Of a stretch of 64,000 nt of DNA, positions 4,850 to 39,253 are shown one piece after another. Source of the stretch: Pelosinus sp. UFO1 (GTDB lineage Bacteria > Bacillota > Negativicutes > DSM-13327); the NCBI RefSeq assembly GCF_000725345.1, contig NZ_CP008852.1:858001-922000 (forward strand), read 5' to 3'. The notes beneath the pieces are model-generated. The model was not told the origin of the DNA. It ran no database searches and saw only the letters and a list, made by a program, of their open reading frames with translations. Each line of letters starts with the position of its first letter. The stretch's first letter is position 1. A program made the position numbers and the translations under genes.

Positions 4850-4964
4850 TTCGCGATTGTTTCGGGGACTGGCTTGTATTTATGCAAAAGCCCTGTAGCG
4901 CGAAATCGAAGCATGTCCATATATCAACTACAACCCGTTTCTCCTGGTTAATTTGATAAATGAG

Positions 4965-5085
4965 ACTTGATTCAGATGGGGTTTTAACCCCATCTGAATC
5001 TTAGTCGAATTATCCAGGGACTTAGCCGTTCTTTACTCCCGCCTGCAGAGGACGGGAGTATTAGAACGGGTTAGTCATCGGATAA
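4965..5085 (-). repeat. Short copy of a structured repeat, overlapping a histidine kinase 3' end
   Basis: Read on the minus strand from 5085, it begins TTATCCGATGACTAA and shares blocks with the element at 29321-29655. Shared parts are an outer helix (ACTCCC/GGGAGT flanked by CCG/CGG), a GGCTAAGTCCCTGGATAA block, a CGACTAA block, and a terminal hairpin (4969-5000) whose stem keeps pairing despite base changes. The inner loop here is only about 13 nt, whereas the long copy holds two units of about 101 nt. The first 15 nt encode the last residues (LSDD) and stop of the kinase. The rest of 4850-4964 holds a weak GGCTT/AAGCC hairpin and nothing else recognisable. Confidence 0.75.
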
Positions 5086-6489
5086 ATTGAGGGGGATGCG
5101 AACTGTTATTGTAGTTCCTTCTCCCAATTTACTATCTAAGTGAATTGTACTATTATGCTGCTCAGCAATCAAACTGGCAATGGAAAGCCCGAGTCCAGTG
5201 CCGCCGGTAACTTTGGAACGGGACTTATCAACTCGATAGAAACGGTTAAACACATGAGGTTGCTCCTCGTCCGGAATTCCGATTCCCGTGTCTTTAACAG
5301 TGACTTCAAAATCGTGTTCCATTTTTCTTGCGCCAATCATGATTTTCCCATCGCTCAGGGTATATTTTATACTATTCTCGATAAAAATTCTCAGCATTTG
5401 TTTGATGGATGCGGAGTCGGCACAAATAATGGCGGGATCGTTTTGCGTAAGAATGATCTTGTGGTTTGGCGCAATAATACAAGTTTCTTGAAAAATTTCC
5501 TCAATGAGGCGCTCCGTGTTAAGCGGGGCCTTTTTTAGTATTTGACGGTTCTGGTCAGCCCTAGCTAAAAACAGCAATTTTTCAATTAATCCATACATAT
5601 TGTTTGCTTCAGATTTTATAGCTTCAATTCCTTCCTGTAAGGCGGAAGGATCTTGTTTTCCCCAACGATCCAGCATTTCAGCATAGCCGCTAATAACGGT
5701 TATGGGGGTTCTTAGTTCGTGGGATGCGTCTGATACAAATCGTCGTTGTTTTTCAAAACCCAGTTGAATTCGGTTTAGCATATGATTAAAGGTTTTAGCC
5801 AATTCATGAAGTTCATCGTTGCTATCGGTCAGCGTAATCCGCTTTTCTAAATTTTTAATTTCTATTTCTTTTGCAGTTTCCGTTATATTGCGAATCGGTC
5901 GTAATATCCGATTACTAATGAATATACCAGATATAATTGCAATGATAAGACCTAGCACATTGGTAATAAAAAGGTTTACAATTAAATTTTTTAGAAAATG
6001 GTTTTGCTCCAGCATTGGTTTCATAAAGTGTAACTTAAATAAATGCCCATCTAATGAAATTTGCTTTTTATCATAATAGAAATAAGAACGCTCAGTGTCG
6101 ATTAGCTGCGACACTTCTTCTTTCATTGCCGCAAATTTACGATTGCCAGATTCATGATTATCCCACATAGGGGCATGCATATCCAACGCATGTGCATCGC
6201 TATCAATGATCAAGGAATTTTGATCATCGTATATTTTTAGTATTACCCCCGGCTGCAGGAGATTTTCCTCTAATAACCTACTGTCAACTGTATTTGCCTT
6301 TTCTAGGTATTGGGTTACGTTGATTACACTTTGCCGTAATTCAGCATGGGCTTGGGTAAAAAGTACATAAAGTAATCCTGTAAAGGTAAGACAGCTTGTA
6401 AATAGAAGGATGCATGACAAAATGACTGAGTAAAGCATTGTTAATTTAATCGAAATCGGCATCTGCAGAAGTTTAATCTTTGACCACAT
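5071..6489 (-). CDS. HAMP sensor histidine kinase
   Basis: Membrane sensor kinase partnering the response regulator directly upstream. The start at 6489 is chosen because AGGAG lies 6 nt before this ATG; the 17-nt overlap with the regulator implies translational coupling. Features in order: TM1 (about residues 15-45), extracytoplasmic sensor of about 120 residues, TM2 (about 165-190), HAMP, HisKA with SDASHELRTPI (phospho-His), and HATPase with N, G1 (DTGIGIP) and G2 (GGTGLGLSI) boxes. The signal is unknown. The final codons and stop lie inside the repeat at 4965-5085, so the C-terminus may have been set by insertion of that element. Confidence 0.9.
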   Translation of the reverse strand: MWSKIKLLQMPISIKLTMLYSVILSCILLFTSCLTFTGLLYVLFTQAHAELRQSVINVTQYLEKANTVDSRLLEENLLQPGVILKIYDDQNSLIIDSDAHALDMHAPMWDNHESGNRKFAAMKEEVSQLIDTERSYFYYDKKQISLDGHLFKLHFMKPMLEQNHFLKNLIVNLFITNVLGLIIAIISGIFISNRILRPIRNITETAKEIEIKNLEKRITLTDSNDELHELAKTFNHMLNRIQLGFEKQRRFVSDASHELRTPITVISGYAEMLDRWGKQDPSALQEGIEAIKSEANNMYGLIEKLLFLARADQNRQILKKAPLNTERLIEEIFQETCIIAPNHKIILTQNDPAIICADSASIKQMLRIFIENSIKYTLSDGKIMIGARKMEHDFEVTVKDTGIGIPDEEQPHVFNRFYRVDKSRSKVTGGTGLGLSIASLIAEQHNSTIHLDSKLGEGTTITVRIPLNLSDD

Positions 6490-26611: not shown

Positions 26612-29299
26612 ATGCCTGAGGAAAGTAAAGAAAAAAAACGTCCAGATCCTGATGTCTTATTAACGAAGCTAAATAAAGAAAACAGAGGTAAGCTGACGGT
26701 GTTTTTAGGTGCAGCTGCCGGTGTTGGTAAAACCTACACCATGCTAGAGATTGCCCATGAGATGTTGGCTTCTGGTGTAGATGTTGTGATTGGTTGGGTA
26801 GAGACCCATAAACGTGTGGAAACGGAAAAAATGGTGGAGGGTTTACCTCGTTTGCCGGCAAGGGAAATTGAGCACCGAGGTAGGACTTTGCATGAAATGG
26901 ATATTGATGCTATTTTGGCGCGTAAACCGAAAGTAGTGTTAGTTGATGAACTGGCCCATACTAATGTGGCCGGTTCTCGCCATGTCCGTAGATTTCAGGA
27001 TGTAGAAGAAATATTAAATGCTGGCATTGATGTATCTACGACACTAAATATTCAACATATTGAAAGTTTAAATGATATTGTCGCCCAGATTACAGGGGTA
27101 ACAGTACGGGAAACGGTGCCTGATAGTATTGTGGAGCAGGCTGATCAAGTGCAATTGATTGATATTCCCCCCAATGAACTCATTAAGCGCTTGAAGGAAG
27201 GCAAAATATATATGCCTCATCAGGCAGAATTGGCGTTGAATAAGTTTTTCCGCCCCGGGAACATTAATGCCTTGCGGGAACTGTCTCTTCGCTTTACAGC
27301 ATATCGAGTGGATAAAGAATTAAATGAATACATGCAGGAACATGATATTCCTGGACCTTGGCCAGCAGGCGAGCGGGTGATGGTCTGTGTGAGTTCTAGT
27401 CCCTTTTCGGCTCAGCTTATTCGGGCAGCACGGCGGTTGGCTCGTGGTTTACAAGCTGAATTATTGGCTGTACATATTGATACACCAAGACGTCTAGAAC
27501 TTAGCGAGAAGGAACGGGATCGTATTTTTCGTAATATGCGCCTGGCAGAGGAATTAGGGGCTAAAACCATAAGTGTCGTTGGTAAAGATCTGACTGAAGA
27601 AATATTATCAATGACACGGGAGTATAATGTCACTCATCTAGTAGTTGGTAAACCACTACGTGGACGTATATGGGAGTGGTTAAATGGCGGTGCGGTAGTA
27701 AATAAACTCATCCGTTATAGTGGTGGTGTTAACATTCATGTTATTCAGGGTAACACAGAGGTAAAGGATGAGCCGAAATTTAAAACCTTAGCAACAAAAG
27801 CAACGATTCCTTTATGGAATTATATGGCCGGTGTGCTAATGATTTTCTTAATTACTGCTGGTAATTGGTTGTGGCGTGAATATATTGAGTCTATACATAT
27901 GATGTTATATTTAGTGCCTGTACTTTTGTCGGCAGTATGGTGGGGGAAGGGACCATCTTATGTGGTGGCATTAGCCAGTGTATTACTTTTTGATTTTTTC
28001 TTTATTCCACCTTTTTTTAGTTTTAGCGTAGCAGATCTTCGTTATCTGTGGAGTTTACCACTTTTTCTCTTAGTATCTTTTACTATCGGCGGACAAACTG
28101 AAAAACTTCGTCTAGAGGCTATGTTAGCTAGGCAGCGGGAAAAGACTACTCGAGCACTCTATTCTTTCAGTCGTGAGATTGCAGCAGTAGTGGAGGTTAA
28201 TGCTATTGTAGGTATTTTGGTCGAGCAAGCATGGCAGACTTTGGAACGACCTGTGGCAGTATTTCTACCCCAGGATAATGGTACTTTACTGTTGGCCGCT
28301 GAAGCAGGGACCAAGAAAAGTGGCATTGATACAAGTGAGCAGGCGGTGGCTATTTGGGCGTATGAGCATAGCGAAATTGCTGGACGTTGTACAGAAACCC
28401 TTCCAGGTGCTAGATACATGTATTTGCCATTAACGACAAGTGATAACACGGTTGGTGTTTTAGGTATTCGGATTCAGGAAAAAATGCTTACTCCCGTGCA
28501 GAGGCGATTGATGGAAGCATGGGCAGGATTGGCAGCTATTGCTGTGGAACGAGTTAATTTAGCCGATCAAGCTAGGCGCGCTGCCTTATTAGTAGAATCA
28601 GATCAATTACGTACTGCCCTATTTAATTCTATTTCTCATGAGCTTAGGACGCCATTGGCATCGATAATTGGAGCAGTTTCCGGTCTTTTAGACGTGGAAG
28701 GTATCTATTCAGGAGAAGATAGAAAAGAATTGTTAGAAACCGTGAAAGAAGGGGCAAATCGTATGGATCGCTTGGTAGCCAATCTTTTGGATACTGCTAG
28801 ATTAGAAAGTGGTATGATGCAGCTGAAAATCGATTGGTGCGACATTGAAGATATTACAGGTATTGCTCTAAGGCGGGTCGAAGAATCTCTTAACGATAGA
28901 GCTTTACTTGTTAGAATACCTGCAGATCTACCGTTGGTGAAAGCTGATTGCGTTCTCGTTGAATTAGTGCTAGTAAATTTACTGGACAATGCTTGTAAGT
29001 ATTCCGCACCGGGGAGTGAAATTGTAATTACTGCCAGTCAGGACGAAAAGGTAGTAAGAGTATCAGTAGCTGACCGAGGTCCAGGTATTCCATCTGAATA
29101 TTTAACACGTGTTTTTGATAAATTTTATCGGGTAGAACAGCCTAAGAGCGTTAGCGGTACAGGCCTAGGTTTATCTATATGTAAAGGAATAATTGAAGCT
29201 CATGGGGGAACAATTCATGCCGAAAATCGACCAGGTGGTGGTACAGTGATGACCTTTGCCCTTCCCTGTGATGAACAGCCACCTTCAAATATGGTATAA
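26612..29299 (+). CDS. kdpD: K+-sensing histidine kinase KdpD, full length
   Basis: An 895-aa sensor kinase. In order: KdpD N-terminal domain with Walker A GAAAGVGKTYTM (about 31-42) and Walker B-like VLVDELAHTN; a Usp domain (about 250-370, known in the family to bind c-di-AMP or nucleotides); DUF4118 with four TM helices (about 395-500); a GAF domain (about 520-645); HisKA with FNSISHELRTPLASI (His near 675); and HATPase with DRGPGIP and GTGLGLSICKG. Unlike the N-terminal-only KdpD of some Firmicutes, this is the long enteric-like form. The structured repeat starts about 22 nt after its stop and separates it from kdpE. Confidence 0.95.
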   Translation: MPEESKEKKRPDPDVLLTKLNKENRGKLTVFLGAAAGVGKTYTMLEIAHEMLASGVDVVIGWVETHKRVETEKMVEGLPRLPAREIEHRGRTLHEMDIDAILARKPKVVLVDELAHTNVAGSRHVRRFQDVEEILNAGIDVSTTLNIQHIESLNDIVAQITGVTVRETVPDSIVEQADQVQLIDIPPNELIKRLKEGKIYMPHQAELALNKFFRPGNINALRELSLRFTAYRVDKELNEYMQEHDIPGPWPAGERVMVCVSSSPFSAQLIRAARRLARGLQAELLAVHIDTPRRLELSEKERDRIFRNMRLAEELGAKTISVVGKDLTEEILSMTREYNVTHLVVGKPLRGRIWEWLNGGAVVNKLIRYSGGVNIHVIQGNTEVKDEPKFKTLATKATIPLWNYMAGVLMIFLITAGNWLWREYIESIHMMLYLVPVLLSAVWWGKGPSYVVALASVLLFDFFFIPPFFSFSVADLRYLWSLPLFLLVSFTIGGQTEKLRLEAMLARQREKTTRALYSFSREIAAVVEVNAIVGILVEQAWQTLERPVAVFLPQDNGTLLLAAEAGTKKSGIDTSEQAVAIWAYEHSEIAGRCTETLPGARYMYLPLTTSDNTVGVLGIRIQEKMLTPVQRRLMEAWAGLAAIAVERVNLADQARRAALLVESDQLRTALFNSISHELRTPLASIIGAVSGLLDVEGIYSGEDRKELLETVKEGANRMDRLVANLLDTARLESGMMQLKIDWCDIEDITGIALRRVEESLNDRALLVRIPADLPLVKADCVLVELVLVNLLDNACKYSAPGSEIVITASQDEKVVRVSVADRGPGIPSEYLTRVFDKFYRVEQPKSVSGTGLGLSICKGIIEAHGGTIHAENRPGGGTVMTFALPCDEQPPSNMV

Positions 29300-29360
29300 T
29301 ATAGAAAACAATATATGATTTTTATCCGATGACTAAACCGCTCTAAGACTCCCATCTTCA

Positions 29361-29461
29361 TCTCGTTAACAGTCTGTAATACCCTTCCCTCTGGTCAGGA
29401 TAACAGTCTGTAAACTCGAAGTAAGTTCGCTCTAAGGATTTTCGAATCCAAGGCTCACTTA
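29361..29461 (+). repeat. Tandem unit 1 of the kdpD-kdpE element
   Basis: The unit begins TCTCGTTAACAGTCTGTAA, has a second TAACAGTCTGTAA, and ends with a branched hairpin: GTAAGT/ACTTAT outer stem and GGATT-TTCG-AATCC inner stem (29436-29449). The loop belongs to the stable UNCG class. Confidence 0.75.
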
Positions 29462-29564
29462 TCTCGTTAACAGTCTGTAATTCCCTGCCCTTGACGGTCA
29501 GGGAAACAGGCTGTAAACTCGAAATAAGTTCGCTCTAAGGGTCTCCGGACCCAAGGCTCACTTA
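29462..29564 (+). repeat. Tandem unit 2 of the kdpD-kdpE element
   Basis: Same layout as unit 1. The terminal hairpin is GGGTC-TCCG-GACCC (29539-29552), where two base pairs differ from unit 1 with both partners changed, and the loop is still UNCG. A CCCTG/CAGGG stem (about 29484-29503) is better formed than in unit 1. Confidence 0.75.
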
Positions 29565-29684
29565 TACAAGTGGGAGTTAAGAGCGGCTAAGTCCCTGGAT
29601 AAGTGCGACTAAAATTCAGGTGGAGTTAAAACTCCATCTGAATCAAGTCTTATTTATTTTCTTTGGAGGAGGGTGGTGTAGATA

Positions 29685-30374
29685 ATGGAAAAAGGAGCAC
29701 GAATTTTAATTGTTGATGATGAACCTCAAATTAGGCGATTGTTAAAAGTCTCATTAACTGCTCATGCCTATGAAATTGATGAATGTCAAAATGGACAGGA
29801 AGGAATCAATAGAGTAGCCATATTTAAGCCTGACCTGATTCTTCTGGATTTGGGATTGCCTGATATGGACGGAAAGACAGTAGTGGAGTCAATTCGTGAA
29901 TGGTCAAAAGTACCTATCATTATTCTGACTGCCCGTGATCAGGAAAATGAAAAAATTGCAGCACTAGATGCTGGGGCAGATGATTATGTTACGAAACCAT
30001 TTAGTATGGGAGAATTGTTAGCACGCTTGCGGGTAGCTCTAAGGCATACTGTAACGGTGGAAAGTTCTCCAGTGATAACTTGTGGTGAATTGATGATTGA
30101 TTTAGTTGCTCGTCATGTAACTCGAAATGATAAAGAAATAAAATTGACACCTACAGAATATGAGATATTAAAAATATTAGCCCAGAATATTGGTAGAGTA
30201 TTGACTCATAAACAGCTATTAAAGGCAGTATGGGGTACCGCTTATAATGAAGATACTCATTATATTAGGGTGTATATTGGTCAGCTCAGACGTAAGGTAG
30301 AGGAGAACCCAGCTCAACCTAGATATATTATTACAGAGTCAGGTGTCGGTTATCGGTTAATGACTGGGATTTAG
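29685..30374 (+). CDS. kdpE: Response regulator KdpE
   Basis: A 229-aa OmpR-family regulator that activates kdpFABC on phosphorylation by KdpD. Receiver: ILIVDDEPQIRR, phospho-Asp in LILLDLGLPDMDG, TKPFSMGELLARLR. DNA-binding winged helix: about 130-227, with LTPTEYEILKILAQNIGRVLTH (in two blocks) and HYIRVYIGQLRRKVE, ending GVGYRLM as in KdpE. GGAGGAGG precedes the start. The structured repeat lies between kdpD and this gene, which is unusual because kdpDE normally overlap. Confidence 0.93.
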   Translation: MEKGARILIVDDEPQIRRLLKVSLTAHAYEIDECQNGQEGINRVAIFKPDLILLDLGLPDMDGKTVVESIREWSKVPIIILTARDQENEKIAALDAGADDYVTKPFSMGELLARLRVALRHTVTVESSPVITCGELMIDLVARHVTRNDKEIKLTPTEYEILKILAQNIGRVLTHKQLLKAVWGTAYNEDTHYIRVYIGQLRRKVEENPAQPRYIITESGVGYRLMTGI

Positions 30375-37236: not shown

Positions 37237-37351
37237 ACGAATTTCCACAAAAATTTTAATTCTATACCTTTTGGCGGAGGCATGAATGTTCCAAATGTTT
37301 TATTATAGGATTCATAGAGCTCTATTTTGTAAATTGAATGTGTTAGATTTC

Positions 37352-37425
37352 GGCAAACTTATCGAAAGGTAAGGACGCAAAGCTATGGGTCTAAGAATCT
37401 TAGGATTTAAGGCTGCCAGGTTGCC
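37352..37425 (+). ncRNA. Cyclic di-GMP-I (GEMM-I) riboswitch aptamer
   Basis: The class I c-di-GMP aptamer pattern is clear: P1 5' strand GGCAAAC, GNRA tetraloop helix ATCGAAAGGT, the invariant GGACGCAAAGC, then GGGTCTAAG for the receptor helix, and the closing GGCTGCC-AGG-TTGCC. GGCAA (37352-37356) pairs with TTGCC (37421-37425) as P1. It lies 130 nt before a chemotaxis receptor gene, a usual target of this class, and senses the motility-to-sessile second messenger. Confidence 0.93.
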
Positions 37426-37458
37426 ATTGACTAACGTCAATGTTGCCATGGCAGTTTT
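37413..37458 (+). terminator. Terminator overlapping the 3' part of the c-di-GMP aptamer
   Basis: CTGCCA (from 37413) can pair with TGGCAG ending at 37453, enclosing ATTGAC-TAAC-GTCAAT, followed by five T. The stem uses aptamer bases, including the 3' P1 region, so aptamer and terminator exclude each other. This predicts an ON switch: ligand binding prevents termination. The direction is inferred from pairing only. Confidence 0.7.
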
Positions 37459-37552: not shown

Positions 37553-39253
37553 ATGAATAGTAAAAAAAGATTGCCTATTATTTTACAGTTAACAAGTATG
37601 TTTGCTATCGCTGCAATGCTATTATTATCAGCCCTTGGTTATACAATTTATAATTATCTTTCACTAGGCGACGAGTCAAATAAGCTGGTATCATATACTG
37701 CAGTTAGGACAATGTCTATTAAGGAAGCTCATACAGATTATGTTAGAGCCCTTCTTAATTTCCGTGGATTCTTGCTGTATCCTGATGGAGCAGCTTATGA
37801 GCAAGGATATCAGGAAGATATGAAAAAAGCGATTAAAACAGTGAAAGAATTTAATTCTAGTTCCGCGAATCAAGATTCAACTGTAGAAGGTGCTAAACTT
37901 GAAAAGTTACTAAATGAATATTTAGGCCTTGTTGAAAAAATGATAATTGCCAAGAAAACCAATGATCCAACACTGAATCAACTGACTACAGAGGGGCGCA
38001 AACATACAAAGGATATTGAAGATCAATTTACAAAACTGGCTGAGATACAACAAAAATCTATGACAGATAAAAGTAATCTTATGATTACACATGCCCAAAA
38101 TAGCAGTAGAAATATTATTTTACTGAGTACCTTAATTTTTATAATGGCCTGTATTGTGGTAATTTGGTATAGTCGCAATTTGGCAATGCGTTTTAGATAT
38201 TTAACGAAATCAATGACTATGATTGGGCAACTAGACCTTACAGAAAAGGATATTGAAATTCGTCGAAATGATGAAATTGGGGATATGGGGAACATCCTTA
38301 ATTCTATGCGTAATTCCCTAAAAGAAATTGTTGCATTGCTTCACACCAGTTCTCGAACATTGGCCGCATCCAGTGAAGAGTTGAGTGCATCAGTCGAAGG
38401 ACACCTAGAAACCGTAGATATTGTGGCTAATAGTACGGGAGAGATTGCTGCGGGTGCTTCTAAAAATTCGGATAGTATTATCAATATCTCAGGAGCAGTT
38501 GAAAAAATTTCAGCTGGTGCAGAAGAAATTAACGCTAATGCAACAGAGGTAAATGCCAATACACAAAATGCTGTTGCGGAAGTAGATCGTGGTATGTCCA
38601 TGTTACAAGCCGTTGTAGAACAAAATGAAAATGTTGCCTCTTCTATGGCTGAGATTACAATAGTAACAGAAAAATTGGCGCAAGGATCGCAGGAAATTAA
38701 AGGAATTGTAGATGTAATCACCAATCTTGCTGGACAAACAAATCTTCTAGCCCTAAATGCAGCAATTGAAGCTGCCAGAGCAGGGGAAGCAGGTCGAGGA
38801 TTTGCTGTCGTAGCAGAAGAAGTTCGTAAGCTAGCTGAACAAAGCGAAAAATCTACAAAAGAAATCACAGAGATCATTTCCAATATGGGAAGTGAGATTG
38901 CAGTGTCAGTAAATGCAGTGGAACGAGCGAACGGAGAGGTTGTGAAATGTAAAACCTCAGCTCTCGATACACAAAAAGGCTTTCAACTCATTGCGAAAAG
39001 GCTAATTACTGTAAAAGATGGTATTGAGCAAATTGCTTCTGCAATTGGTGAAACTGCTTTGGGGACACAGTCTATGGTAACTAGCGTAGAAACCATACGG
39101 CTTGTAGCAGATACTACCTCGGAAGGTATTCAGACCGTTGCAGCTTCCACAGAAGAGCAATCTGCCAGTATGCATGAAATTGGTGATAACGCTGATTCAC
39201 TTGCTAAGCTGGCAACGGAACTGAATGCAGTAGTTCAAAAGTTTAAAGTATAA
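37553..39253 (+). CDS. Methyl-accepting chemotaxis protein (riboswitch controlled)
   Basis: A 566-aa receptor. TM1 (about 12-32), an extracytoplasmic four-helix-bundle-like sensor (about 33-185), TM2 (about 186-206), HAMP (to about 262) and a long signalling coiled coil. The hairpin tip reads [20 protein letters not shown] then [17 protein letters not shown], the region contacting CheA and CheW. Ligand unknown. The upstream c-di-GMP riboswitch sets its level, and a CheV-like gene follows 38 nt later. Confidence 0.94.

Follow-up and report, generated by a model that had tools for sequence, protein, structure and literature searches.

The spacer between kdpD and kdpE of Pelosinus sp. UFO1 probably contains one copy of a mobile element that is non-autonomous and moves as single-stranded DNA, much as the IS200/IS605 transposons do. 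The element works like an element of the IS200/IS605 type, and it is not filed here as a proven member of that group, given that none of the Y1 loci examined carries its ends. The spacer insert thus looks like a transposon-type insertion and not like an RNA dedicated to potassium control.

The kdpD-kdpE insert and its parts

In the window, that is, the 64,000-nucleotide stretch of the chromosome that was analysed (positions 858,001 to 922,000 of contig NZ_CP008852.1), kdpA, kdpB and kdpC are located upstream of kdpD (26612-29299) and kdpE (29685-30374), for which the best NCBIfam matches are KdpD and KdpE, respectively, each below the strict cutoff of that model. The spacer is about 53-55 nt long without the insert and 385 nt with it, and the ribosome-binding region of kdpE is intact. 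The preliminary description of this locus assumed that kdpD and kdpE normally overlap; in this genus, there is no overlap even in the empty site (counted by eye). The same description correctly identified an organised spacer with tandem units, an outer helix and a 3' hairpin, all of which are present, but the borders it gave, 29321-29655, have to be revised because the element proper occupies 29326-29657 of the plus strand.

The whole inserted element is 332 nt long and includes two inner units; its extent follows from the empty-site comparison, with the borders taken from 104 copies. It is preceded by the target site TTTAT (29321-29325, plus strand), which is found once in the empty site of the sister species (L168). 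All parts of the element are read on the plus strand. The left part (29326-29354) consists of CCGATGACTAA followed by the 5' arm of the left hairpin (CCGCTCTAAGACTCCCA). Inner unit 1 (29362-29462, 101 nt) runs from CTCGTTAACAG to CTCACTTAT and carries a TTCG hairpin, and inner unit 2 (29463-29565, 103 nt) has the same layout, a TCCG hairpin and 85% identity to unit 1; the two unit hairpins initially described, GGATT-TTCG-AATCC (29436-29449) and GGGTC-TCCG-GACCC (29539-29552), are both there. The units are followed by the 3' arm of the left hairpin together with the outer helix (TGGGAGTTAAGAGCGGCTAAGTCCCTGGAT, 29571-29600), the right-end hairpin with CTAA on its 5' side (29607-29649), and the element-borne right terminus TTTAT (29653-29657).

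The window contains a second copy of the family at 4956-5086 on the minus strand (model R1, 143 bits, E = 5e-31), which belongs to another subtype and has no units. This copy is close to the Sporomusa-type copies, and its left hairpin is changed on both sides (CCGTTCT/AGAACGG). Elsewhere in the window, a c-di-GMP-I riboswitch (37342-37428, plus strand, 79.6 bits) is located upstream of a methyl-accepting chemotaxis gene (37553-39253).

Copies and distribution

The element is dispersed over the genome of Pelosinus sp. UFO1 in at least 55 copies, those with mismatched ends included, and a search of this genome returned at least 80 matching pieces at about 40 places; these numbers come from pattern and model searches and are lower bounds. 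Pattern scans detected 49 exact left ends, each with a right end no more than 550 bp away, as calculated from the coordinates. In this genome, the core of about 132 nt accommodates 0, 1, 2 or 4 units of ∼102 nt in the loop of the left hairpin, which corresponds to copy lengths of about 130, 233, 335 and 536 nt, with the same outer parts throughout; the sister species G006 has a copy with five units (L138). No exact copy was found at 1493523-2845586 of the chromosome, the region in which the replication terminus presumably lies, and a gap of this size (1.35 Mb) was never reached in 20 000 random placements of 49 copies.

With the covariance model R1, the element was detected in all eight genomes of the genus, in one of the two genomes of a sister genus and, over the class, in 49 of the 251 genomes, representing 29 of the 91 genera. 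The carriers include Sporomusa malonica, S. acidovorans, S. silvacetica, Pelosinus fermentans and Desulfosporosinus sp. PR, the last one with dozens of copies (L269-L345), some of them in tandem chains with a common TTTAT. Desulfosporosinus belongs to a different class than the other carriers, and its copies suggest horizontal transfer. The phage and plasmid records searched contained no match to the element. Likewise, the open-access full-text literature yielded no description of it for Pelosinus, Sporomusa or Negativicutes, and none of the three core sequences.

Insertion site and ends

The joined flanks of 11 copies were used to search four related genomes for empty sites. In the sister species G006, six of the 11 sites are empty, three are filled and the remaining two could not be called; the kdpD-kdpE locus (L168) is among the empty ones, and the site is clean. 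The empty-site alignments place the element 3' of YTAT, usually TTTAT. At L009, the empty site reads CTAT, and in the filled site the left 5-mer is TCTAT and the right one TTTAT; at L010, the respective sequences are CTTAT and TTTAT. Over the 104 copies, the left 5-mer is TTTAT in 85 and another sequence in 19, with TTAT to the left in 98; the right end is TTTAT in 97, including 18 of the 19 copies with another left 5-mer. Given that the left 5-mer varies and the right TTTAT is constant, the latter is part of the element, and insertion does not duplicate the target. Where copies of the element stand in tandem, they have one TTTAT in common (L058, L345).

Each end hairpin is preceded by YAA, in the form of CTAA or CCAA on the left (CCAA in about a fifth of the left guides and mostly CTAA in the rest) and CTAA on the right. 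The TAA of CTAA is complementary to TTA, and CTAA lies in an internal loop of the predicted fold.

About one copy in four sits at a TTAT target that coincides in part with the stop codon of a convergent gene, read as TAA on the opposite strand; the right ends concerned are those of L004, L006, L009, L010, L011, L021, L032, L033 and L034. Because the TTTAT brought by the element restores the stop codon, the insertion is harmless to the convergent gene, as judged by eye at L010.

Inner units

The inner units have borders of their own. Among 78 units, the start CTCGTTAACAG is preceded by TCAT in 50, TTAT in 18 and CTAT in eight, and the unit ends with CTTAT in 76. As read from the sequence, the last hairpin of the unit is followed by AAGGCTCAC and TTAT, and the right end of the element shows the same spacing, with AAGTCTTCT and TTAT; the ∼102-nt unit has a layout similar to that of the element and may itself be a mini-element, nested in the larger one. 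The number of units differs at eight orthologous G000/G006 sites, namely, 0/1 at four, 1/2 at three and 4/2 at one.

The alternative to the transposition of units is that their number changed by recombination, that is, by slippage or by gene conversion between dispersed copies, and the chances of this are about even. The units within one array are often 95-100% identical, most units have one flank type, as if derived from a single founder, and no solo unit was found outside the outer element; the one candidate, L128, is actually an element with the right hairpin deleted. By contrast, the units of the kdp copy are only 85% identical, the unit borders fit TTAT, and the unit-free loops of L122, L127 and L156, where CTTAT is directly joined to ATAAGTGG, look like exact empty sites for the unit. 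The units may have multiplied by duplication, by conversion or by independent arrival.

Proposed mechanism

The elements of the IS200/IS605 family have hairpin ends, with a guide 5' of the hairpin foot, and insert 3' of a tetra- or pentanucleotide without target duplication (PMC7290912, PMC6006769). By analogy, an HUH transposase of the Y1 type, acting in trans, would recognise the two end hairpins, and the TTA at the cleavage sites would base-pair with the TAA guide adjacent to each hairpin. Once excised, the strand would be joined to the 3' side of a YTAT target and would itself supply the TTTAT at the right end. The inner unit would probably derive from another mini-element, laid out similarly, that entered a TTAT within the left hairpin's loop; additional units would have been inserted at the terminal TTAT of the unit before them, or would have arisen by duplication.

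Several observations do not sit easily with this scheme. None of the Y1 loci examined contains a transposase gene with matching ends, and in four genomes that carry the element, one of them only 72% complete, no Y1 gene was seen. The GAC of GACTAA is paired in the predicted fold, so that the guide is not plainly at the hairpin foot; about a fifth of the left guides have CCAA in place of CTAA; and 50 of the 78 units follow TCAT, which agrees with the TTAT rule only on the assumption of a single-base loss in the lineage concerned. Elements of the IS608 type prefer the lagging-strand template, whereas the 49 exact copies show no replication-strand bias (22 versus 27, P = 0.57), with the origin roughly placed by GC skew.

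Fold, covariation and competing explanations

The preliminary description took the two-sided changes between the unit hairpins as a sign of selection on RNA structure, and the reading that follows from it is that the insert is a functional structured RNA that either regulates kdpE in cis or acts as a small RNA of its own, with the fold kept by selection on the RNA. The structural observations behind this reading are sound. Compared with shuffled sequences, the kdp insert folds with z = -7.4 as RNA, and with z = -10 as single-stranded DNA; the loops are of the UNCG type; and the two-sided changes recur over the unit copies, with GC in 21 and AU in 12 at the column pair 85-95, and CG in 19 and UA in 13 at the pair 87-93. 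The outer element, for which 33 diverse unit-less copies were sampled, covaries as well when compared with shuffled and slid controls: the named structure is 93% paired in these copies and collapses when slid, and two-sided changes affect 16 pairs, compared with 5.4 in the shuffled controls. Nevertheless, base-paired ends would also be expected from selection on single-stranded DNA hairpins for transposition, so that covariation does not separate RNA from single-stranded DNA. The single mispairs are even, with 56 G·T and 56 A·C. Neutral transitions in former Watson-Crick pairs give G·T and A·C equally, whereas selection on RNA should favour G·U. The orientation of the copies relative to the neighbouring genes is random (++12, +-11, --10, -+6), and comparison with Rfam, at gathering and at relaxed thresholds, gave chance-level scores only, with no family match. 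Together, the equal mispairs, the random orientation and the lack of an Rfam match mean that nothing points to a selected RNA; covariation among lineages combined with neutral decay of single copies fits source elements selected for their hairpins during transposition. The presence of the element in many copies and its absence from the same locus in the sister species further speak against an RNA tied to kdp or a discrete functional RNA, the chances of which appear slim. The preliminary description itself named, as an outcome contrary to an RNA function, homologues that occur only as a known transposon-derived repeat and give no expressed RNA; as for the first half of this outcome, the homologues are indeed found only as a transposon-like repeat, although not one that was already known, as far as searched.

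The element could still be transcribed with kdpE. A promoter-like site with TG before TATAAT (29272-29300, plus strand) spans the end of kdpD and is a possible promoter of kdpE's own, and its TATAAT is kept in the species with the empty site; behind such a promoter, the insert could be part of the kdpE leader, a point in favour of the RNA reading.

The remaining alternatives are themselves mobile elements. A classical MITE would depend on a DDE transposase and show terminal inverted repeats and a duplicated TTTAT or TTAT target; it would be small, non-coding and multi-copy, as this element is, and most copies indeed have TTTAT on both flanks. However, neither end is an inverted repeat of the other, and the right end is TTTAT even at targets that are not (as at L009 and L010), which makes a MITE very improbable. 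A REPtron, in which the resident RAYT-like protein would mobilise a REP-like element, is a special case of the IS200/IS605-like explanation that names the enzyme. The genome of Pelosinus sp. UFO1 encodes one full-length RAYT-like Y1 protein of 253 amino acids (L068:1468-2229, plus strand), which is near the NCBIfam model REP_Tyr_transpos and under its cutoff, and a shorter relative at 3546063. The element resembles REP/BIME sequences with their RAYTs (PMC2817692, PMC6006769) in that it forms dispersed intergenic hairpins with a short 5' tag in a genome with a RAYT-like gene. The RAYT-like protein and the element are both present in 36 of the 251 genomes of the class, with 13 having the element only and 10 the protein only, an association (Fisher P about 1e-23) that is confounded by phylogeny. 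Against this explanation, the RAYT-like gene at L068 has no copy of the element beside it, and the element is abundant in genomes without the RAYT-like protein (the f11 family) and also occurs in the four genomes in which no Y1 gene was seen. Furthermore, the tag is CTAA or CCAA instead of GTAG or GTGG, the element is much longer than a REP (at least 132 nt versus 21-65 nt), and the sequence of the Pelosinus element is common to several genera, whereas REPs are described as species-specific (PMC2817692, PMC6006769). Mobilisation by the resident RAYT-like protein thus seems unlikely.

The search for mobilisers yielded no carrier of matching ends. None of the Y1 loci examined, RAYT-like or IS200, carries the ends of the element or shows similarity to them, and the genome of Pelosinus sp. 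UFO1 contains no long left-right end pair, so that no autonomous TnpA element with matching ends was seen there. A TnpB-type partner was sought in the genus and gave a single match, in G006, with none in Pelosinus sp. UFO1. Partial ends in Desulfosporosinus (L318 and other loci) were considered as remains of autonomous copies; no transposase lies within the stretch of L318 that was read.

Comparison with known systems

The closest described systems include the non-autonomous derivatives of IS200/IS605, known as ends-only or palindrome-associated elements (PATE; PMC7290912), which similarly consist of hairpin ends only, with no gene, are located 3' of a short fixed target without target duplication, and are thought to be moved in trans. 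The differences are that no full-length partner with the same ends was found and that the present element has many copies, inner tandem units and a range of many genera. In its modularity, the element is reminiscent of BOX of Streptococcus pneumoniae (PMC3049150), which also combines two fixed outer modules with variable inner modules, is intergenic and has a strong predicted fold; here, 0, 1, 2, 4 or 5 units occur between the outer parts, and the likeness is one of form only. Unlike the case of BOX, the insertion rule is known from empty sites, and the layout of the inner unit is similar to that of the outer element. Porphyromonas gingivalis has a MITE with a minisatellite (PMC4596501), likewise a miniature mobile element that includes a tandem array; the present element differs in that its units are about 102 nt long, with hairpins of their own and a TTAT end. 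Thus, the element is IS200/IS605-like and non-autonomous, with BOX-like modularity: its kind is known, and the repeat itself is new as far as searched.

A broader interpretation, possible if doubtful, is that these are orphan single-strand elements that occur across the class and beyond, harbour a nested similar element and are mobilised in trans by an enzyme that has so far not been associated with repeats of this kind, in a REPtron-like arrangement outside the described REP classes.

Implications

The puzzling kdpD-kdpE spacer is resolved into an insertion for which the empty site can be seen, and the case illustrates that a spacer element present in many copies can covary without this being a sign of selection on RNA. 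Beyond this locus, the repeat family is common to 29 of the 91 sampled genera of the class and a Desulfosporosinus. Finally, because the inner unit is laid out like the element that hosts it, the way in which modular repeats such as BOX gain their internal modules becomes testable.
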